A stretch of DNA of 64,000 nucleotides. Origin: Spiractinospora alimapuensis (GTDB lineage Bacteria > Actinomycetota > Actinomycetes > Streptosporangiales > Streptosporangiaceae). Position numbers and translations under genes: made by a program. Of the stretch, positions 20,833-57,704 are shown piece by piece (within the stretch, counting starts at the first letter, position 1; each line of letters starts with the position of its first letter). The stretch spans positions 3,100,001-3,164,000 of the forward strand of contig NZ_CP072467.1 in the NCBI RefSeq assembly GCF_018437505.1, written 5' to 3'. The notes beneath the pieces were generated by a model. That model worked only from the letters and a program-made list of their open reading frames with translations. It was not told the DNA's origin and made no database searches.

Positions 20833-20891
20833 GGAAGGTGCACACACCACTCTGCGGAACGCGAGCTTGAGTCGCGCCGTAGGGTCCCCAC

Positions 20892-21737
20892 ATGACCGGA
20901 TTCGTCATCGTCGTCGTCCTCGGGTCCGCGCTGATCCACGCCGTGTGGAACGCCCTCCTGCACGCGATCACCGACCGGATGCTGGGGTTCGCCCTCGCGG
21001 GTCTGGGCGGCATCGTCACGGGCGCGCTCCTCATTCCCTTCGTCGGCCTGCCCAACCCCGCCGCGTGGCCCTACCTGATCACCTCGATCGTGTTGCACAT
21101 CGCCTACATGAGCTTCCTGATGCTCTCGTTCCGGTTGGGCGACTTCGGACAGGTGTATCCCCTCGCCCGCGGGGTCGCTCCCTGGGCGGTCACGATCGCG
21201 GCCGCGATCCTCCTCAACGAATCCTTGGGCCTCGGCCAGCTCCTGGCCATCGGAATCATCTCCGCGGGTCTGCTGAGCCTCACGTTCTCTGGCGGTCTCC
21301 CCGGTAGGCACCAGCTGCCGGCGATCGGCGCCGCGTTGGTCACCGGCCTCCTGATCGCGACCTACACGATGGTCGACGGGGTGGGAATCCGGCTCGCCGA
21401 CGGAGTCCTCGCCTACACCGCCTGGTTGATCTTCAGCCACTCGACCTGTTTCCTCACCATCGTGCTCCTCATCCGCAGGAGATCCCTCTTCACCCAGATG
21501 CGCACCGTCTGGTGGCGGGGAATGCTGGCCGGCGCGTTGTCGCTCACCGCCGCCGCGATGGTTCTGTGGGCCCAGTCCGTAACCGCGTTGGGGCCGATCG
21601 CCGCCCTTCGGGAAGCGAGCATCATCTTCGCCGCCCTGATCGGCACCGTGTGCTTCCACGAACCGTTCGGGCGGTTCCGGTTACTCGCCGCCGTCACCGT
21701 CACGGCCGGCATCGTCCTGCTCGCGGTATCGGGCTGA
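20892..21737 (+). CDS. EamA/DMT-superfamily transporter, copy 1
   Basis: 281 residues with ten predicted helices in two EamA repeats, the layout of drug/metabolite transporters. The first half carries HAVWNALLHAITDRML and SFRLGDFGQVYPLARG (about residues 75-95), the second TYTMVDGVGIRLADG and ALREASIIFAALIG. It aligns end to end without gaps with the next gene and is clearly a tandem duplicate, the two being separated by 110 bp. Substrate unknown. Start ATG 20892, with AGGG upstream. Confidence 0.85.
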   Translation: MTGFVIVVVLGSALIHAVWNALLHAITDRMLGFALAGLGGIVTGALLIPFVGLPNPAAWPYLITSIVLHIAYMSFLMLSFRLGDFGQVYPLARGVAPWAVTIAAAILLNESLGLGQLLAIGIISAGLLSLTFSGGLPGRHQLPAIGAALVTGLLIATYTMVDGVGIRLADGVLAYTAWLIFSHSTCFLTIVLLIRRRSLFTQMRTVWWRGMLAGALSLTAAAMVLWAQSVTALGPIAALREASIIFAALIGTVCFHEPFGRFRLLAAVTVTAGIVLLAVSG

Positions 21738-21847
21738 TCCCACAAGGCGCGGACATTGCCCGCTGGTGAACGCCGGTCAACGCTGACCCGACGTTGGTGT
21801 TACCCCCGGTGGCCTACCGGCGACATCACAGGCGTAGGGTCTGCCGG

Positions 21848-22693
21848 GTGACTGGACTTGTCGTCGTCGCGGTACTGGCTTCCGCTGCCATTCACGCGTC
21901 CTGGAACGCCCTGCTGCATGCGATCACCGACCGGATGCTGGGGTTCGCTCTCGCGAGCCTTGGTGGCATCGTGGCCGGTGGGATCCTCATCCCCTTCGTC
22001 GGGCTCCCCCACGCCGACTCCCTGCCCTACCTGATCGCCTCGATCGTGCTGCATGTGGGCTACATGGCGTTCCTGATGCTGTCGTTCCGGCTGGGGGACT
22101 TCGGACAGGTGTATCCGATCGCCCGCGGGGTGGCCCCCTGGGCGGTAGCGCTCGCGGCGGCGTTCTTCCTCGGCGAGACGATGGGGCCCCTGCAGCTTCT
22201 GGCCATCGGGGTGGTCTCCGTCGGACTGCTCAGCCTCACCTTCGCGGGCGGACTCCCCACCAAAGCACAACTGCCCGCCATCGCCGCGGCCCTGGCCACC
22301 GGGCTGGTGATCGCGACCTACACCCTCGTCGACGGAGCGGGCGTCCGGTTGGCCGACGGATCGATGGCCTACGCGACCTGGCTGATCTTCGGCCACTCCG
22401 TCGGGTTCCTCGGCCTCGCGCTCCTGATCCGTCGCCGGAAACTCTTCCGCCAGATGCGCGGCGTGTGGTGGAAGGGAATGCTCGCCGGCGCCCTGTCCCT
22501 CGTCGCCTACGCGCTGGTGCTCTGGGCGCAGACCGTCTCCGCCCTCGGCGCGGTGGCCGCCCTGCGCGAGACGAGCATCATCTTCGGCGCCCTCATCGGC
22601 ACGCTGTTCTTCCGCGAGTCCTTCGGCCGCTTCCGCGTCGTCGCCGCCGCCACCGTCACGGCCGGCATCATCCTGCTGACCGTGACGGGCTGA
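21848..22693 (+). CDS. EamA/DMT-superfamily transporter, copy 2
   Basis: Paralogue of the gene just upstream: same length of 281 residues, same ten helices and identical stretches such as SFRLGDFGQVYP, RGVAPWAV and LIRRR. Start is GTG 21848, giving MTGLVVVAV, which lines up with MTGFVIVVV of copy 1; a longer frame from 21794 has no counterpart. Differences gather in the periplasmic-side loops and helix 3-4, as expected if the copies now prefer different substrates or if one is simply recent. It converges on the Uma2-like gene 8 bp away. Confidence 0.85.
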   Translation: MTGLVVVAVLASAAIHASWNALLHAITDRMLGFALASLGGIVAGGILIPFVGLPHADSLPYLIASIVLHVGYMAFLMLSFRLGDFGQVYPIARGVAPWAVALAAAFFLGETMGPLQLLAIGVVSVGLLSLTFAGGLPTKAQLPAIAAALATGLVIATYTLVDGAGVRLADGSMAYATWLIFGHSVGFLGLALLIRRRKLFRQMRGVWWKGMLAGALSLVAYALVLWAQTVSALGAVAALRETSIIFGALIGTLFFRESFGRFRVVAAATVTAGIILLTVTG

Positions 22694-49311: not shown

Positions 49312-50481
49312 CCCAGGCCGGCTCCCCTCACCAGTGGATCCTGCCGCACCGACCAGTCGTGGTCCCCCGGCTCCGGCCACGGCCGGGACGCCCCTCGAGA
49401 GGCGGGATTGATCGGTGTTGGTGGAGGAGAGCGGTTCCACGGCTGGTGGAGCCGGACATGGCGGTCTTGCCGCGGGCGAGGTCGACGCACGGTGGCGACG
49501 ACTGGGTAATGAACCGCCGGTGATCCGGAAGGGCAGTCACTCGGTCACCGGCGGGTGAACCCTGCCTGATGGTCGTACTGTCCCCGGCAGCCGCACCGAA
49601 GAACTCCTGGCGCCTCCCCCGACCCATGTGGTGGTGGCCGAGGTACCCGGCACAACCATGGCTCGGGCACGACCCACAGGCAGATCCGCGACGCTCTACG
49701 AGACGCGTCGTCGGGCACAGCGCACGTGCGGTCGACTACCGGGCACGACCGGCCGGAAGTGGGCGGCGGAGAGATTCAGCGTCGCCGTCCGGCACGGACG
49801 TGTGGGGCGGCGACACGTCCGACCGCGCCCACCAAGGGTCATGCCACGCACGGCCGTTCGTCATGAGGGGCTCCGTCCCTCTCCCGGCTCCTGATAACCC
49901 ACGCTCGGACTCACGTGGACACCGCTCGCCCACGGCGACGGTGACGATAGAGCCGTGGCCACAACCCCTTCTCGGGCTCGGCTCTCAGGAAGGCTGGCCA
50001 CGCCACGCATGGCGACCCCTGGAGCACAAGTGCCCAAAGGGCGCGACACACCCGTCACGGCCACCGAGCCCGTCGGCGCGACCGACCGCTGTGGAGCGCG
50101 GGGGCGGCACCAGGACCGACGCCATACCCGGTCGTTTGTCGAGACTCCCTCCGGGTGGAGCCGGTCACAGCCATTGGTCCGCCACGCCGCACGACGCGTC
50201 GTCGCACAGCGCTCCTTCCGGTCGGCAGGACCGGTACGACCCCCCGAGCCCGCCGGCGCGGGCGACGCTTGCCGGTCGGTAGCGGGTCGCGGCCGATGGA
50301 GTCCGGTGTGCGGCACGAGCGGCGACGTAACGACCGCGGAGCCGGGCCGTCGACATGCCTCCGGGCGGACCTGAAACCGGCGCGACGGCCATCCCGCGCG
50401 GTCCTCGACCGTGCCGCGCACGAAGCCCGTCCGTCGCGCCGGGGCGCGCGAGGGGAACTGGCGGTGGGCGACAATGGGGTC
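49312..50481. other. 1.2-kb intergenic stretch, no gene seen
   Basis: Between the peptide importer and the AfsR-like regulator. Frames without stops occur on both strands (for example 49569-50282 plus) but their protein composition is Arg/Pro/Ser-rich shadow sequence with no motif or start signal. No transposase, tRNA or terminator was recognised. It may hold the regulator's promoter, decayed DNA, or small RNA genes. Confidence 0.5.
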
Positions 50482-53355
50482 ATGCGATTCGGGGTCCTAG
50501 GGCCGGTGCGGGTGGGGGACGACCTCCAAGGGACGGTCGGTGGGCTGCGGTTGCGTGCCCTGCTCACGCTGTTGCTGCTGGACGCGGGGCGCATCGTGCC
50601 CACGGACCGCCTCATCGACGGCGTGTACGCCGAGGATCCGCCCCGGGGCGCGGCGAACGCGCTGCAGTCCCAGGTGTCCCGACTTCGGCAAATGTTGCCG
50701 ACCGACAGCGCCGGTGCACCGTTGGTGGAGTTCCATCCGGGCGGGTATCGGATCGCCGTCGACCCTGACGACGTGGACGTCCACCGCTTCGCCCGCCTCG
50801 CGGGCGAGGGCCAGGGAGCGGCCCAGGCCAATGACCCCCGACGGGCGGCGCTTCTCCTCCGGCAGGCCCTTGACCAGTGGCGCGGACCGGCCCTCAGCGA
50901 TGTGGCCGAACTGCCGTTCGCGGGACCGCAAGCCGCCCGGTTGGAGGAGCAGCGGGGGAAGGTGATCGAGGAGCTGGCCGCTACCCAGCTCGCTCTGGGG
51001 CTGGCCAACGACGCGGCCGACGGCCTGCGCCCCCACGCGGACGCGAACCCGCTACGGGAACGCACCTGGGCCCTCCTGATCCGCGCCCTGGGCGGCGCGG
51101 GTCGACAGGCCGAGGCCCTGGCGGCCTTCGACCGGGTGCGGACCGCCCTCGCCGACGAACTCGGCGCGGATCCATCGCCGGAGCTCGCGGACGCGCACCT
51201 GGCGGTGCTTCGGGGGGAGACCACGGTCGCCCCGGCCGCGCCGGAACGGTGGGGGCTCCGGCACCAGTTCACGTCCTTCGTGGGGCGCGAGAACGACGTC
51301 CAACGCGTCGCCTCCCTGTTCGACGACCGCCAACTCGTCACCCTGGTCGGGCCGGGGGGTGCGGGCAAGACGCGGCTGGCCATCGAGGTCGCCGACGGGT
51401 ACGTGGGTGACGTCGGTTTCGTGGACCTGTCCAGCCTCGGCGAGACGTCCGACATCCCCCAGGTCATCCTGGGAACCCTGGAACTGGGCGAGGCCGGACT
51501 GCGGGCGTCGACCAGCGCGCCACCCACCGAGGACCATGCGCTGCGACGCCTGGAGAACGCGCTGGCGAACCGAGCGCTCCTCCTCGTGCTGGACAACTGC
51601 GAGCACGTCATCGCCCCCGTGGCGGCGCTTGTCAGTCGGCTGTTGAGCGCGTCCCCCTCGCTGCGTGTGCTCGCCACCTCCCGCGAGCCGCTCGGGATCA
51701 CGGGTGAGGCGCTGCACCGGCTGTGGGGGTTGCCCCTGCCGCCAGGAGACGTGCCCCCGGACCCCGACCAGCTCCAGGAGTCAGCCGCGGTGCGGCTGTT
51801 CGTGGAACGCGGGAAGGACACCGACCCCGGCTTCGCCCTGTCGTCGGAGACCGTTGAGTCGGTGCTGCGCGTCTGCCGGCGTCTCGATGGCCTCCCGTTG
51901 GGGATCGAACTCGCCGCGGCGCGGCTGCGCACGCTTCCGGTGGCCGAGATCGCGCGCCGGCTGGACGACCGGTTCCAATTGTTGTCCCGCGGCAGCCGAA
52001 CGGCGCAGCCTCGGCACCAGACGCTGCGCGCGGTCGTCGAGTGGAGCTGGGATCTCCTGAGTGCCGAGGAACAACGACTCGCCCGACGCTTCACCGTCTT
52101 CTCCGGAGGCGCTGACCTGCAGGCGGTGGAGGCCGTCTGTGGTGGTGAGGGAACGGACGTCCTCGAGACGCTGAGCGGTCTGATCGACAAGTCGTTGGTG
52201 GAGTCCGACGGGGGCCGCTACCGGATGCTCGACACGGTGCACGCCTTCTGCTCCGAGCGGCTGGAGGAGTCGGGGGAGGCCGAGGCGGTTCGCGAGGAGC
52301 ACTGGACGTTCTTCCGTGACCTCGCCCAGCGGGCCGAACCGTGGCTGCGACGCACGGAGCAGCTCGAGTGGCTGGCCCGGCTGGACGCCGAGCGCGACAA
52401 CCTCCACCTGGCGATCCGGCGCGCCGTCGCGGCGGGTGACTCCGTCACCGCCGCGCGCATGGTGGCGCCCCTAAGCCTGTACTGGTGGGTGCGGGGCATG
52501 CGCTGGGAGGCGTCCTCGATCGCCGACGACGTCCTCTCCGTCTTCGGCGACGAGCCGCCAGACGAGCTGTACGAGGAGTGGTGCGCGTGCGTCCTCCTGG
52601 CGTCGATCACCCGCACCGACCCGGAGCTCGTCGAGCTGAGGGAGGCACTGCGCTTCAAGACCTGGCGGTGGCTCCTGGAGACCGAGGAGGCGCCGAGGTA
52701 CCCGTTCACCCTGTATCTGTTCGCCCTGGCCAGCGGACCGCCGCAAGACCCGATAGAAGAGGACGTCTACCTGACCGCGGTGGCTGGCGAGCGGCACGGT
52801 CCGTGGCTGCGCTCGCTGACGTTGGTCGGCTCGAGCACGCTCGCACGGCTCAACGGGGAACGCCTGAGTTCCGAGGCCCCCCTTCGCGAGTCGCTCGCCG
52901 GTTTCCGGAAGTTGGGTGACCGCTGGGGGATGACGCTCGCGTACACCATTCTGGGTGAGGAGCTGGGGGACGAGGGGCGCCCCGCCGAGGGCGTGGCGGC
53001 ACTGGAGCAAGCGCTCCTCCTCGCCCACGAGCTGCAGGCGAACCGGGACATCGCCGACCTGACCCGTGTCCGAGGCAGCCTCCGCCTGGAGATGGGCGAC
53101 ATCGTCGCGGCACGCGCGGACTTCGAGGAAGCGGCGACGCTCGCTCGTCGCGCCGGCGACCAGGAGAACGCCTCGGGGGCAGGCCTCGGCCTCGCCAAAG
53201 TCGCCCTTCGGGAAGGAAACAGCACCAAGGCACGCCACCTCGCGGAAACGGCACTTGCCCAGTGCCCGACAGGGTGGTTCATGGCCGACGAGACTCACGA
53301 CGAGATCACCGCGTTCCTGGACACTCTCGGGGCCGCCCCGGACCAGCGGGGCTGA
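50482..53355 (+). CDS. AfsR/SARP-like regulator with BTAD and NB-ARC domains
   Basis: Large multidomain regulator, 957 residues. Residues 1-90: OmpR-type winged helix (MRFGVLGPVRVGDDLQGTVG, LRLRALLTLLLLDAGRIV); 93-240: bacterial transcriptional activation domain (RFARLAGEGQGAAQA, ALGLANDAADGL, WALLIRALGGAGRQAEAL); 258-520: NB-ARC ATPase with Walker A VGPGGAGKTRLAIEVA (about 288-303), LLLVLDNCEHV (Walker B) and ATSREPLGITGEAL; 600-957: TPR-like helical repeats (AYTILGEELGDEGR, QALLLAHELQAN, LAETALAQCPTGW). ATG 50482. No polyketide or peptide cluster is adjacent; it may act on the exporter cluster at 55.9 kb or elsewhere. Confidence 0.9.
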   Translation: MRFGVLGPVRVGDDLQGTVGGLRLRALLTLLLLDAGRIVPTDRLIDGVYAEDPPRGAANALQSQVSRLRQMLPTDSAGAPLVEFHPGGYRIAVDPDDVDVHRFARLAGEGQGAAQANDPRRAALLLRQALDQWRGPALSDVAELPFAGPQAARLEEQRGKVIEELAATQLALGLANDAADGLRPHADANPLRERTWALLIRALGGAGRQAEALAAFDRVRTALADELGADPSPELADAHLAVLRGETTVAPAAPERWGLRHQFTSFVGRENDVQRVASLFDDRQLVTLVGPGGAGKTRLAIEVADGYVGDVGFVDLSSLGETSDIPQVILGTLELGEAGLRASTSAPPTEDHALRRLENALANRALLLVLDNCEHVIAPVAALVSRLLSASPSLRVLATSREPLGITGEALHRLWGLPLPPGDVPPDPDQLQESAAVRLFVERGKDTDPGFALSSETVESVLRVCRRLDGLPLGIELAAARLRTLPVAEIARRLDDRFQLLSRGSRTAQPRHQTLRAVVEWSWDLLSAEEQRLARRFTVFSGGADLQAVEAVCGGEGTDVLETLSGLIDKSLVESDGGRYRMLDTVHAFCSERLEESGEAEAVREEHWTFFRDLAQRAEPWLRRTEQLEWLARLDAERDNLHLAIRRAVAAGDSVTAARMVAPLSLYWWVRGMRWEASSIADDVLSVFGDEPPDELYEEWCACVLLASITRTDPELVELREALRFKTWRWLLETEEAPRYPFTLYLFALASGPPQDPIEEDVYLTAVAGERHGPWLRSLTLVGSSTLARLNGERLSSEAPLRESLAGFRKLGDRWGMTLAYTILGEELGDEGRPAEGVAALEQALLLAHELQANRDIADLTRVRGSLRLEMGDIVAARADFEEAATLARRAGDQENASGAGLGLAKVALREGNSTKARHLAETALAQCPTGWFMADETHDEITAFLDTLGAAPDQRG

Positions 53356-53546
53356 CCTCGCCGTCCGTCGCCCTGTTGTCGTCGGGACCGCCCCTACGGC
53401 CCGTGGGTCGGCGCGGACCGTTGGCACGCCCAGTACCCGACGGACCGAGCCAACGCCCGCCCCGGACGGCGCCCCCGACAGGGCGGCCGGCGCGGGCGAC
53501 GGGGCGACGCTGATCCCGGCCCTCTGAGGTCAACTGGCCCGAAGCG

Positions 53547-54215
53547 TCAGACGGGAACCGGCTCGTTCGTCGCGCGAGAGGTCGTGCGCCCGGCGCGCAC
53601 CAGGGTGCGGGCGACCAGGACACACCCGGCTGTGAGCAGGACACCGTGCACCATGCGGATGGGCTGTGGGGTGAAGAACTGCGGCAAGAGAAGCACGAAG
53701 CCAAGCGCGAAGGGCGCGGCGGACCACACCGACGCGTGGCCGGACTTCGTGACCGCGCCGGCGGCGAGGACGGCCGCGGCTCCCAGGAGCAGGAGGCCGA
53801 CGGCGAAGAGGCCCGTGGCGACGATGTCGGTGTGCAGGGTGTCGGCCAGGGCCACGACCGACCGGTCCCCGGTGTCCAGCGCGTGCTGGGAGACGAACCG
53901 CAGCATGAACGTCTCCGCGCCGTAGTAGGGCAACGTCAGTCCAATCCCGAGGACCGAGACGATGACCGCGCTGATCGCCGATCGGTGTCCCAGGGTCCCC
54001 CGCAGCGTCTGAGGGAGCCACGAGAGGCCCAAGGTGATCAGCGTGAACGCGCCGATGGCGAACAGGTGGGAGGCGAGCCACGCCGTGGAGGCCATGGTCT
54101 CCGCGGTGTCGGTGAACGGGCGGACGAACTGGTAGAGCGCGAAGAGGACACCGCCGATGACCAGGGAGGTGGCGGCGAGCCGGGTCAGGATCGGGGATGG
54201 CGCGTCGAAAGTCAT
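53547..54215 (-). CDS. six-helix membrane protein, unknown function
   Basis: 222 residues with six predicted membrane helices (AATSLVIGGVLFALYQFV, HLFAIGAFTLITLGLSWL, AISAVIVSVLGIGLTLPYYG, TDIVATGLFAVGLLLLGAAA, and two more). I do not recognise the family with confidence; DUF998/DUF4386-type proteins are similar in shape. The ATG at 54215 directly touches an operator palindrome, leaving no ribosome site, so the transcript may be leaderless. It is divergent from a TetR gene and is very probably its target. Confidence 0.7.
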   Translation of the reverse strand: MTFDAPSPILTRLAATSLVIGGVLFALYQFVRPFTDTAETMASTAWLASHLFAIGAFTLITLGLSWLPQTLRGTLGHRSAISAVIVSVLGIGLTLPYYGAETFMLRFVSQHALDTGDRSVVALADTLHTDIVATGLFAVGLLLLGAAAVLAAGAVTKSGHASVWSAAPFALGFVLLLPQFFTPQPIRMVHGVLLTAGCVLVARTLVRAGRTTSRATNEPVPV

Positions 54216-54262
54216 AGAGCAATGCTCTCGAATTAGAGCAGCAAATACAAGAGCACTGCTCT
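54216..54262. promoter_or_regulatory. two TetR operators between divergent genes
   Basis: AGAGCA-A-TGCTCT (54216-54228) and AGAGCA-C-TGCTCT (54250-54262) are both perfect 6-1-6 inverted repeats, their centres 34 bp apart; a lone AGAGCA half lies between at about 54235. The first abuts the start codon of the membrane protein gene. Confidence 0.8.
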
Positions 54263-54294
54263 CGGTTTCTCGTGGCCCTCGCTACCATGGCCTG

Positions 54295-55014
54295 ATGACC
54301 GCGATCCGAACCGCCCGAGAACGCGCCCGCGAGGAACTCACCCGCGAGATCGCCGACGCGGGGCGCCGCCACCTCGCGGAGCACGGGGCGCCGGGGCTGT
54401 CCCTCCGGGCCATCGCCCGCGAACTCGGTATGGTCTCCTCCGCGATCCACCGCTACTTCCCCACCAAGGACGACCTCCTGACCCGCCTTATCGTGGACGG
54501 CTACAACGCGGTGGGGGACGCGATCGAACGCGCCGACGCGGACGTACCCCGCGACGCCTACACCGACCGTTGGCTCGCGTCGTGCCACGCCCTGCGCGAC
54601 TGGGCGAGGGACAACCCCCACGAGTACGCGCTCATCTACGGGTCCCCGGTCCCCGGCTACGCCGCGCCCTCCGACACCGTCCTGCCGGCGGCCCGAGGCG
54701 CGGCCGTCGTCGGCGCCGTCCTCCGCGCGGCCCACGAGGCCGACGCCCTGCGGCCCCCACCCGGGTACCCCGCCCCGCCACCGGAGTTCGCCGAGGACGC
54801 CGAACGCCTCCGCCCCGCGCTGGGCCCCCTCCCCGACGAGACGATCGCCCGCGCGGTGACCGCCTGGACCGCCGTGTTCGGATGGCTGAGCTTCGCCCTG
54901 TTCGGCCAGTTCGCCAACGGCGTCGAGCACCAGGACGCCGCGTTCGACCATCACCTCCGCACCCTGGCGGCCTATCTGGGGCTCCCACCCACCGGCCCCA
55001 CACCACCCGGCTGA
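54295..55014 (+). CDS. TetR-family transcriptional regulator
   Basis: 239 residues. Helix-turn-helix at about residues 37-60 (LSLRAIARELGMVSSAIHRYF), followed by PTKDDLLTRLIVDGYNAVGD. The C-terminal domain carries WLASCHALRDWARDNPHEYALIYGSPVPGY, the TetR_C_13-like pattern (WHG-type). ATG 54295 chosen at the family start; the frame is open back to 54157 through the operators. Divergent from the membrane protein and flanked by two identical operator palindromes, hence autoregulation and repression of that gene is very likely. Confidence 0.88.
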   Translation: MTAIRTARERAREELTREIADAGRRHLAEHGAPGLSLRAIARELGMVSSAIHRYFPTKDDLLTRLIVDGYNAVGDAIERADADVPRDAYTDRWLASCHALRDWARDNPHEYALIYGSPVPGYAAPSDTVLPAARGAAVVGAVLRAAHEADALRPPPGYPAPPPEFAEDAERLRPALGPLPDETIARAVTAWTAVFGWLSFALFGQFANGVEHQDAAFDHHLRTLAAYLGLPPTGPTPPG

Positions 55015-55887
55015 CCCACCGACCCAAGTGGACGCCTCATGGCCGGGACGGGACGTCCAGCGGGGCGGACCACCCGGCCACGGCGTTCACGGAGAGCACC
55101 GCCCATCGGAAGCTCACCAGCCGTGGCCGCTGAATACGCGGACGGCACCGCTCGACCGGTGCCGCGGGGACTCCACGCGTCAGGATCGGTGTCCCCGCGA
55201 TGCGAGGCCACCCGACGGTAGGCGGGGGAATCCTGCCGCCGAGGAACGGTGCCCTCCGCGATGGCCACGACGGCCGCGGTCCCCCTGTCGACGGGATCGG
55301 CACACGGGCCGCGGAACGCACAGGGGGATGAGCCCCGCGCGTCGCGACCTATCCGGCCGTGGGCCCCGTCTCCACATCGTGGCGCACCGCCCTCCGGGTC
55401 ACAGCGGTTCCCTGTGCGTTCCGGAAGGCGGTGATCTCGTCGGGGGTCTCGTCGGCCAGGAACCGACCTGTCGGGCACCGGGTCAGCGCCTGCTCCAGCG
55501 CCGCCACGCCTTCGGCGGGACGGCCCTCGTCCCCCAGCGACTCCGACGGACCGACGCCCGGCCGAGAGAGAAAGCGCCCCACGCCGTCGCCCGAAGAACC
55601 CCACATGACGCGACCGCCCCATGACCACGCACGGAAACCGCACCATGAGGCCATCACGCCCACGGTGCGCGCCGGAGTCGCCATGATCGGCCGGCGAGAG
55701 TGCCGTGACGTCGCTGGGCGCCCGGGTTCGACCCGAACCTCGGATGAGCGCTGACGGGCCCGGCGCTCGGCGCACCCTCAGGCCCCCACGCCCGCCCGAC
55801 CAGGGCTGACGCCGCAGACGAGGCCGTGCGCGCCGCCGTCAGCTCGTCGTGCGTCCACGGTCAGCGCCGCCCCGCACTCTGATCCCT
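55015..55887. other. 870-bp intergenic stretch with decayed regulator fragment
   Basis: No intact gene. On the minus strand it holds the remnant listed separately. It also contains a perfect 14-bp inverted repeat, CGGAACGCACAGGG (55312-55325) and CCCTGTGCGTTCCG (55410-55423), 84 bp apart. The rest shows only shadow frames. Confidence 0.55.
55400..55545 (-). pseudogene. fragment of an AfsR-like regulator C-terminus, internally deleted
   Basis: A stretch inside the minus-strand frame 55349-55684 reads SLGDEGRPAEGVAALEQAL followed at once by TRCPTGRFLADETPDEITAF. These match two separate parts of the AfsR-like protein at 50.5-53.4 kb (ELGDEGRPAEGVAALEQAL and AQCPTGWFMADETHDEITAF), with the roughly 80 residues between them missing. 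The DNA is also close to identical over the blocks. So it is the remains of a second copy in inverted orientation, with a deletion joining short GCRCT-type sites. No other part of the gene was found nearby. Confidence 0.8.
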
Positions 55888-56853
55888 ATGACGAAACACG
55901 CGATTCGCACCGAGGCGCTGCGGAAGCGCTACGGCGACAAGAACGCTCTGGACGGTCTCAACCTGACCGTCCCCGAGGGGGGCGTCTACGGACTCCTCGG
56001 CCCGAACGGCGCGGGCAAGACCACCGCGGTCCGGGTCCTGGCCACCCTGCTCCGGTTCGACGAGGGCATCGCCACGGTCAACGGCGTCGACGTCCAACGC
56101 CACCCGGAACAGGTACGACAGCAGATCGGACTCACCGGACAGTACGCGGCGGTCGACGAGATGTTGAGCGGCTGGCAGAACCTCGTGCTCTTCGGTCGGC
56201 TCTTCCGGCTCAGTCGTCCCGCGGCGCGTCGCCGCGCCGAGGAGCTCCTGGCGGACTTCTCGCTCACCGACGCCGCGAAGAAGTCCGTCGCCGACTACTC
56301 CGGCGGGATGCGGCGGCGGTTGGACCTCGCGGTGAGTCTGATCCTGCGGCCTCGGGTGCTGTTCCTGGACGAGCCCACCACCGGGCTCGATCCCCGGAGC
56401 CGGTCCGAGGTCTGGACCACGGTGCGAGCTCTGGCGGACTCGGGGACGACGGTGCTCCTCACCACCCAGTACCTGGAGGAGGCCGACCAGCTCGCGTCCC
56501 GGATCGCCGTGATCGACTCCGGGCGCAAGGTGGCCGAGGGGACACCGAACGAACTGAAGTCGGTGATCTCGGTCGACCGGGTCGAGGTCGTGCTGCACGA
56601 AGCGGCCGACATCCCGCAGACCGCGGAGATCGTGGAGCGCGCCTGTGGCGGTGAGGTGACCACCGACCTCGACACACGTACCGTGCGCGCGCCGGTCACC
56701 GACCGGATGGGGGCCCTGACCTCGGTGGTGCGGGCACTGCACGAGACCGGGATCGAGGTCGAGGACATCGGCCTGCGCCGCCCGACGCTGGACGAGGTGT
56801 TCCTGCACCTGACGGGGGCCGACTCCCGCGGTGCCCACGAGGAGGCGAAATGA
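55888..56853 (+). CDS. ABC exporter ATPase (DrrA-like)
   Basis: Nucleotide-binding subunit of a drug exporter, 321 residues. Walker A GLLGPNGAGKTTAVRVLATL (about residues 36-55), Q-loop GLTGQYAAVDEMLSG, signature YSGGMRRRLDLAVSL (about 139-153), Walker B LFLDEPTTGLDP, H-switch LTTQYLEEAD (Q replaces the usual H, as in many DrrA proteins). DUF4162-type C-terminal tail with RRPTLDEVFLHLTG. ATG 55888 fits the family start. It overlaps the permease by four bases (ATGA). Confidence 0.92.
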   Translation: MTKHAIRTEALRKRYGDKNALDGLNLTVPEGGVYGLLGPNGAGKTTAVRVLATLLRFDEGIATVNGVDVQRHPEQVRQQIGLTGQYAAVDEMLSGWQNLVLFGRLFRLSRPAARRRAEELLADFSLTDAAKKSVADYSGGMRRRLDLAVSLILRPRVLFLDEPTTGLDPRSRSEVWTTVRALADSGTTVLLTTQYLEEADQLASRIAVIDSGRKVAEGTPNELKSVISVDRVEVVLHEAADIPQTAEIVERACGGEVTTDLDTRTVRAPVTDRMGALTSVVRALHETGIEVEDIGLRRPTLDEVFLHLTGADSRGAHEEAK

Positions 56854-57704
56854 GCACCACAATCGCGCGACCAACCACGGCGACGACACCGCCACCACCC
56901 AAGCCGTCCGCGATGACCCGTCTCCGGTGGACCATCACCGACGGGTGGGTCATGGCCGGACGCAACATGGCCCGGCTGGCACGAGACCCCGGCGAGCTGG
57001 GGCTGTACTTCATGCTGCCAATCATGTTCGTCCTGGTGTTCGGCTACGTGTTCGGCAGCGGCATGCAGGTGCCCGACGAGGGTGCCTACCGGGAGTTCCT
57101 CCTGCCCGGCGTGTTCGTGATGACCATGATCTACGGGCTGGGCTCGACTGGCACCGCCATCGCCCTGGACGTGGAGCGCGGCGTCGTCGACCGGTTCCGC
57201 GCCATGCCGGTGGCGCGCTCCGCGCTTCTCGTCGGCCGCAGCCTCGCCGACCTGGCGCGGGCCCTGCTGGAGATGAGCGTGGTCGTGGTCTGCGGCCTGC
57301 TGGTGGGGTGGACCTGGAACGGAACCCTGGCGGAGGCCGCCGGCGCGATCGGACTCATCCTGCTGCTGCGGTTCTCCCTCACCTGGGTCGGCATCTGGAT
57401 CGGGCTGGTCGCCAAGCCGGACACCGTCGGCCTCATCGTGTTCCCGACCGTGTTCCCCATCACCGCCCTGTCCAGCATCTTCGTGGCGCCGGAGTTCATG
57501 CCGTCGGTGCTGCGCACCATCGCGGAGTGGAACCCGCTGTCGGCGACGACCGCGGCCGCCCGAGAACTCTTCGTCAACCCCGGTCTGGGCGGCTCCACCT
57601 GGGCGGCGGAGAACGCGCTCCTGCTCGCCGTGGTGTGGCCCTTGGCGCTGGTCGCGGTGTTCTTCCCGCTGGCCGTACGCCGCTACCAACGACTGAGCCG
57701 GTAG
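56850..57704 (+). CDS. ABC-2 type permease (DrrB-like)
   Basis: Membrane subunit of the same exporter, 284 residues with six helices after a proline/threonine-rich cytoplasmic N-terminus of about 30 residues. Marks: MLPIMFVLVFGYVFGSGM, the DVERGVVDRFRAMPVARSAL loop (about residues 108-127), and IFVAPEFMPSVLRTIAEWNP near the end. Resembles the daunorubicin exporter family; substrate unknown. Followed by a long hairpin. Confidence 0.9.
   Translation: MSTTIARPTTATTPPPPKPSAMTRLRWTITDGWVMAGRNMARLARDPGELGLYFMLPIMFVLVFGYVFGSGMQVPDEGAYREFLLPGVFVMTMIYGLGSTGTAIALDVERGVVDRFRAMPVARSALLVGRSLADLARALLEMSVVVVCGLLVGWTWNGTLAEAAGAIGLILLLRFSLTWVGIWIGLVAKPDTVGLIVFPTVFPITALSSIFVAPEFMPSVLRTIAEWNPLSATTAAARELFVNPGLGGSTWAAENALLLAVVWPLALVAVFFPLAVRRYQRLSR

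Follow-up and report, generated by a model that had tools for sequence, protein, structure and literature searches.

The analysed window covers 64,000 nucleotides, positions 3,100,001-3,164,000 of the single-contig 5.86-Mb genome of Spiractinospora alimapuensis, and window coordinates are used unless stated otherwise. The region around the drrAB drug-pump operon contains the following features:

50482..53355, plus strand: gene of an AfsR-like large SARP regulator, hereafter REG, the nearest relative of the fragment (ORF; Pfam)
52962..53015, plus strand: REG segment 1 matched by the fragment (BLASTN, 90.7%, 54 bp)
53250..53317, plus strand: REG segment 2 matched by the fragment (BLASTN, 85.3%, 68 bp)
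53356..55835, no strand: stretch between REG and the drrAB operator, probably inserted according to the locus comparison (limits approximate)
53547..54215, minus strand: membrane protein of 222 aa (ORF; no family above cut-off in Pfam or NCBIfam)
54295..55014, plus strand: TetR-family regulator (Pfam TetR_N and TetR_C_33)
55349..55684, minus strand: 111-aa open frame enclosing the fragment (ORF list; ATG at 55684)
55404..55543, minus strand: fused, inverted, internally shortened C-terminal REG fragment (BLASTN, diagonal comparison, ungapped extension)
55838..55865, plus strand: predicted SARP-type operator with GTCAGC repeats 22 bp apart and a middle GTGCG at 11 bp (comparison of the sequences before DrrA)
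55888..56853, plus strand: DrrA-type ABC ATPase (TIGR01188, 358.7 bits, cut-off 312.45)
56850..57704, plus strand: DrrB-like ABC-2 permease (Pfam ABC2_membrane, 3e-25; under the TIGR01247 drrB cut-off)

REG is thus separated from the operator and drrAB by about 2.5 kb, which carry the membrane protein gene (minus strand), the TetR gene (plus strand) and the fragment (minus strand). The ATPase resembles that of daunorubicin-type DrrA-DrrB efflux systems and scores above the TIGR01188 cut-off, whereas the permease differs with a score of 48.4 against the drrB cut-off of 223.05. Elsewhere in the window, a direct repeat of about 860 bp with 77% identity (20878-21737 and 21833-22693) was detected, which is probably a tandem gene duplication.

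The start of REG was taken as the ATG at 50482; the longest listed ORF begins earlier, with a GTG at 50155. Pfam detected BTAD (8.1e-37), Trans_reg_C (4.4e-8) and NB-ARC (1.1e-5) domains, and TPR models match the TPR-like C-terminus weakly, under their gathering cut-offs. REG has the Trans_reg_C, BTAD, NTPase and TPR-like architecture of AfsR-like large SARPs. It shares the winged-helix, BTAD, nucleotide-binding and TPR-like parts with AfsR of Streptomyces coelicolor and other large SARPs, as outlined in PMC10936776, but differs from AfsR in reaching only 172 bits with the AfsR equivalog model NF053617, below its cut-off of 1430. The REG family occurs at six other places in the genome (seven match rows) with 30-48% protein identity. 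Two other REG-family loci of this genome contain in-frame stop codons inside the match, namely 2993810-2996833 (three TGA and one TAG) and 1924455-1927622 (one TGA) in genome coordinates; these may be copies that are decayed or carry a frameshift, or the match overruns a stop.

A BLASTN search of 55000-56000 against the window revealed two strong inverted matches to the 3′ part of REG. Positions 55485-55538 match 53015-52962 on the minus strand over 54 bp (90.7%, E 1.4e-15), and positions 55423-55490 match 53317-53250, likewise on the minus strand, over 68 bp (85.3%, E 1.2e-16). The third-best non-self match within the window (E 0.004) lies far behind. By ungapped extension the two blocks reach 55404-55490 (87 nt, 79%) and 55485-55543 (59 nt, 88%), and the fragment thus comprises about 140 bp out of the 2874-bp REG gene. 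The offset between the two diagonals is exactly 240 bp, corresponding to 80 amino acids that are absent relative to REG, and the join is therefore in frame. The fragment adjoins the drrAB operon and is oriented backwards relative to REG. These results bear out the claim of the earlier note that two C-terminal segments of an AfsR-like gene are fused in one frame on the opposite strand, for which it had proposed BLASTN against the 3′ part of the regulator gene as a check; its wording of near-identical DNA was too strong for an identity of 85-91%. A further inverted match of 22 nt (82%) at 55834-55855 was dropped (E 0.59), and the site is accounted for by the drrA operator.

Against the whole 5.86-Mb genome, the same two matches were recovered with E-values of 3.3e-14 (68 bp) and 2.2e-13 (54 bp). 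A chance match was rejected on the E-values in the window and genome-wide, the latter being 2.2e-13 or lower, and against an assembly artefact stand the identity of 85-91%, which a mis-joined read would not give, and the genome forming a single contig. No support for either was found, and both can practically be dismissed.

For the analysis of the internal gap, the best 40 of 99 translated REG relatives were aligned (the loci L028 and L110 have an identical sequence). All 40 retain the 80 residues that are absent from the fragment, so that the short form is derived and the fragment represents a shortened copy, confirming the internal deletion proposed by the earlier note. In REG, the units YTILGEELGDEG..., TRVRGSLRLEMGD... 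and GLGLAKVALREGN... align by eye as 40-residue repeats. In the fragment, ...LEQAL of the first unit is followed by what in REG comes after ...AETAL in the third, and the deletion thus removes exactly two 40-residue units with endpoints that agree in the protein-repeat register. In the present-day REG gene, only 22 of 66 bases around the endpoints and 7 of 15 at the joint are alike, a state that may differ from that at the time of the deletion. With this little agreement in the DNA, a deletion mediated by a DNA repeat is not demonstrated, and the agreement is one of protein-repeat register. The deletion between short repeats proposed in the earlier note is thus weakly supported.

The stop codon is absent from its homologous position in the fragment, and an Arg replaces the Trp of a TGWF stretch found in REG. 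This Trp is kept in REG and in six aligned relatives linked to drr genes (L022, L023, L024, L035, L048 and L069); it is also missing from several more distant relatives and hence not universal among the 40 aligned sequences. The N-terminal DNA-binding, BTAD and ATPase parts of REG were not found near the fragment. In 55015-55887 and 53356-53546, no convincing remnants of the rest of the gene were detected, where one of the searches was empty at E 0.01 even for the fragment itself. Elements needed for function, i.e., the N-terminal parts, the stop codon and the drr-linked Trp, are thus lost.

It was also considered whether the 111-aa frame encodes a functional small protein, e.g., a TPR-derived decoy of the regulator. 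The frame is open, and in its homologous part the G + C content at the three codon positions (0.74/0.58/0.86) is close to that in REG (0.77/0.50/0.87). However, no homology was detected for over half of the frame, the conserved Trp is lost, and the pattern is weaker for the whole frame (0.70/0.65/0.82). The ORF at 55349-55684 gave no match to Pfam or NCBIfam families at E 0.01 and none to PADLOC at 0.001. A functional small protein is accordingly regarded as very improbable.

In the matched blocks, 16 of 40 codons differ, and 11 of these changes are synonymous, for which neutral drift leads to an expectation of about 3-5 (p <= 0.001 in all twelve mutation models). Pure neutral drift was rejected on these grounds. 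The excess is no proof of past selection on the fragment, because the branch of the working gene also accumulates mainly synonymous changes: with half of the changes placed on the REG branch, the probability of at least 11 synonymous changes out of 16 is 0.07-0.25, and with 30% placed there, it is 0.014-0.044. The constraint on REG alone can explain the excess under the half-and-half model, and less well at 30%; the excess is likewise compatible with a copy that worked for a while.

To place the fragment in context, 271 stretches encoding REG relatives were found, of which the best 80, from named genomes, were kept. Relatives of DrrA and DrrB follow REG directly and in the same direction in 5 of these 80 loci, all from Micromonospora (L022, L023, L024, L048 and L069), with identities of 64-67% for DrrA and 64-69% for DrrB. 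Sixteen further drrAB loci were fetched from other families by DrrB similarity. In only one of them (L211) do DrrA-DrrB come directly after REG, with the operator immediately ahead of DrrA; in the other 15, the 8 kb retrieved contain no REG, and the leader before DrrA is different. In eight of the best 80 REG loci, weaker DrrA-DrrB relatives (DrrA 49-54%) are located downstream on the opposite strand.

The sequences preceding DrrA in the REG-linked loci share the consensus C(C/G)GTCAG(C/T)-N4-(C/G)GTGCG-N4-C(C/G)GTCAG(C/T), which ends 21-22 nt before the ATG, and the stop codon of REG falls within this element in L022, L024, L048 and L069. The window copy is located at 55836-55865. As the element of the REG-linked loci is present there, the stretch from 53356 to about 55835 looks inserted, and we infer that it came to lie between REG and its putative operator. 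A comparable arrangement is found in Actinoplanes italicus (L035, 11276-14055), where about 2.7 kb including an opposite-strand ABC-transporter-like ORF lie between the regulator and operator-drrAB, so regulator and operator may have become separated on more than one occasion. The main weakness of the insertion reading is the minority of loci with a REG-drrAB linkage: since only one of the 16 DrrB-fetched loci shows it and eight of the 80 REG loci have the pump genes on the opposite strand, a co-oriented adjacency as the ancestral state rests on few loci.

Within this stretch, two palindromes of the form GAGCAnTGCTC are located at 54217-54261 between the divergent membrane protein and TetR genes. 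A GAGCA/TGCTC palindrome with one or two central bases was found at 21 of 24 loci of TetR relatives and at 21 of 26 loci of membrane-protein relatives; as a control, 1.44 Mb of REG loci gave 11 matches. The palindrome is likely the TetR operator, and the membrane protein would share the regulon, as judged from this distribution. At the 26 membrane-protein loci other than the own one, one weak TetR match was detected nearby, and none of the 24 TetR loci has a membrane-protein relative within about 1.5 kb.

Two origins of the fragment were weighed. In the first, the 3′ part of REG was duplicated in inverted orientation inside this genome, across the membrane protein/TetR pair, and the deletion followed. 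The inverted orientation, the distance of 2 kb in one genome and the fact that the resident REG is the nearest relative found speak for it. On the other hand, no mirrored DNA was detected past either end of the fragment when the sequence beyond it was compared with that beyond REG, an identity of 85-91% needs considerable time or a diverged source, and the deletion endpoints show little DNA similarity. This origin is therefore considered somewhat unlikely. The earlier note had placed the inverted duplication around the membrane protein/TetR pair, which is not borne out by the comparison, since the flanks are unmirrored and the outgroup loci suggest that the pair lies in an insert of about 2.5 kb between the regulator and the drrAB operator. 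Overall, the history proposed in the earlier note is partly supported.

The second origin is the remnant of a diverged homologue, either a functional paralogue or the orthologue of a related strain, that was brought in with the membrane protein/TetR stretch. The identity of 85-91% instead of near 100% and the 11 synonymous changes among 16 point in this direction, as does the absence of exactly two repeat units with the frame kept, a change that could leave a protein functional; identity and in-frame loss fit this origin at least as well as the duplication. Against it, no such gene was found elsewhere in the own genome, nor by DNA in 341 genomes of the family, where two candidates were scored per genome and a miss is possible. 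Likewise, no REG match lies within about 1.5 kb of the TetR relatives (0 of 24 loci) or the membrane-protein relatives (0 of 26 besides the own locus). We give this second origin a little less than an even chance.

The search for a donor gave the following results. An intact second copy of the source gene was not found in the own genome, and the six other REG-family places were rejected as a source because their DNA does not resemble the fragment, with 20 out of 105 candidates scored. Some DNA match to the fragment at E 1e-3 was detected in 15 of 41 relatives, and a match at 1e-5 in 26 of the 341 family genomes (two candidates scored per genome), the own sequence being included in both counts. 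The matches outside the own genome are short (about 24-88 nt) and reach at best 54.5 bits, compared with 78.8 and 76.1 for REG; they are read as ordinary similarity of repeat-coding DNA.

Taken as a whole, the fragment is probably what decay has left of a second copy of the regulator gene, one closely related to REG. This is because the DNA matches lie far above chance, the gap of 240 bp is in frame, the Trp and the stop codon are lost and a family match is absent; furthermore, six loci have REG directly upstream of DrrA-DrrB, with the operator before DrrA as in the window. The excess of synonymous codon changes and the small share of loci with a co-oriented REG-drrAB order speak against this reading. 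The fragment is C-terminal only, inverted, 85-91% identical to REG and located inside the stretch that separates REG from operator-drrAB. The second copy would have arrived or arisen with the rearrangement that placed the membrane protein and TetR genes between the regulator and the pump operon, and would have lost all other parts of the gene including the stop codon, leaving a functionless piece. The resident REG probably still activates drrAB via the predicted operator at 55838-55865. Truncated pseudogenes occur in bacteria near a parent gene. The fragment resembles these in being partial, internally deleted and without stop codon or domain, but differs in its inverted orientation and in a deletion that is in frame and in repeat register.

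The predicted operator was analyzed further in the best 80 REG loci. The pattern GTCAGY-N16-GTCAGY, followed by an ATG after 21-22 nt, was detected on the REG strand in 29 of them and not found in 51. In 26 of the 29 loci the site lies from -45 to +223 nt relative to the REG stop codon, and in L027, L034 and L035 it lies farther away. Position 12 is G in all 29 sites and position 13 is T in 27, as expected for a third repeat at 11 bp. A scan of both strands of the 80 loci gave 30 matches, i.e., the 29 and one on the opposite strand in L085; reversed sequences gave none, and neither did mononucleotide shuffling (mean over five sets). The stricter form with the middle GTGCG is present in 10 of the 80 loci, with 0 matches in the controls. 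By eye, the sites are followed by 6 genes for ABC ATPases, 6 for MFS-like and 14 for FAD-enzyme-like proteins and 3 others, so that ABC-pump, MFS-like and FAD-enzyme-like genes make up 26 of 29; for three of these proteins submitted to Pfam, the matches were FAD_binding_3 (L050), MFS_1 (L026) and AAT (L027). Because REG was the criterion for choosing the loci, this pairing holds as an association among REG loci.

A scan of the own genome for the strict pattern, tolerating at most two mismatches, gave two sites, both exact, one before drrA and one at genome positions 685,190-685,217 (L237). The latter is followed after 22 nt by the ATG of a FAD_binding_3 protein (Pfam), and no REG relative lies within 1.5 kb of it. 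This gene is a possible second target of REG. Among 394 genomes of the class, 11 contain the strict pattern (12 sites) and none the reversed one; a start codon is located 21-22 nt downstream of 7 sites and is lacking at 5. The element is thus rare and not always accompanied by a REG neighbour, since a REG relative within 1.5 kb was found at only two of the 12 sites (L240 and L241; the window fragment was not counted).

According to PMC10936776, the repeats of SARP promoters are spaced by 11 or 22 bp, and the 3′ repeat lies 8 bp from the -10 hexamer. The sequence before drrA agrees with this spacing (repeats at 11/22 bp), with 8 bp between GTCAGCG and a -10-like hexamer CACTCT that was assigned by eye. 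In S. coelicolor, the -10 hexamer of afsS is CACTGT (PMC10936776). PimR-type SARP-LAL operators likewise consist of three heptameric direct repeats with 4-bp spacers, according to PMC5930380, but their consensus is CGGCAAG instead of the GTCAGC-based sequence, and the C-terminal half of PimR differs from that of REG. The drrA transcript may be leaderless. In the parts of the published SARP literature that were searched, neither this operator sequence (including GTCAGCG) nor remnants of AfsR genes are treated, which for the operator sequence is no proof that it is unpublished.

A more far-reaching reading, which we consider rather unlikely in its full extent, is that the fragment is what remains of a formerly working second regulator that lacked two in-register repeat units. 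In addition, REG would be one of a widespread group of large SARPs which activate neighbouring genes of resistance type, namely those for ABC pumps, MFS pumps and FAD enzymes. Their operator would consist of three repeats at a fixed distance, 21-22 nt, from the start codon, the transcripts would probably be leaderless, and here REG may act on drrAB and the distant FAD-enzyme gene.

As such, the fragment is an unremarkable relic of gene decay and rearrangement. What it suggests is that a regulator was parted from its probable target and that the target kept its operator, and this predicted operator offers a testable candidate site at which a large group of AfsR-like regulators encoded beside resistance-type genes may bind.
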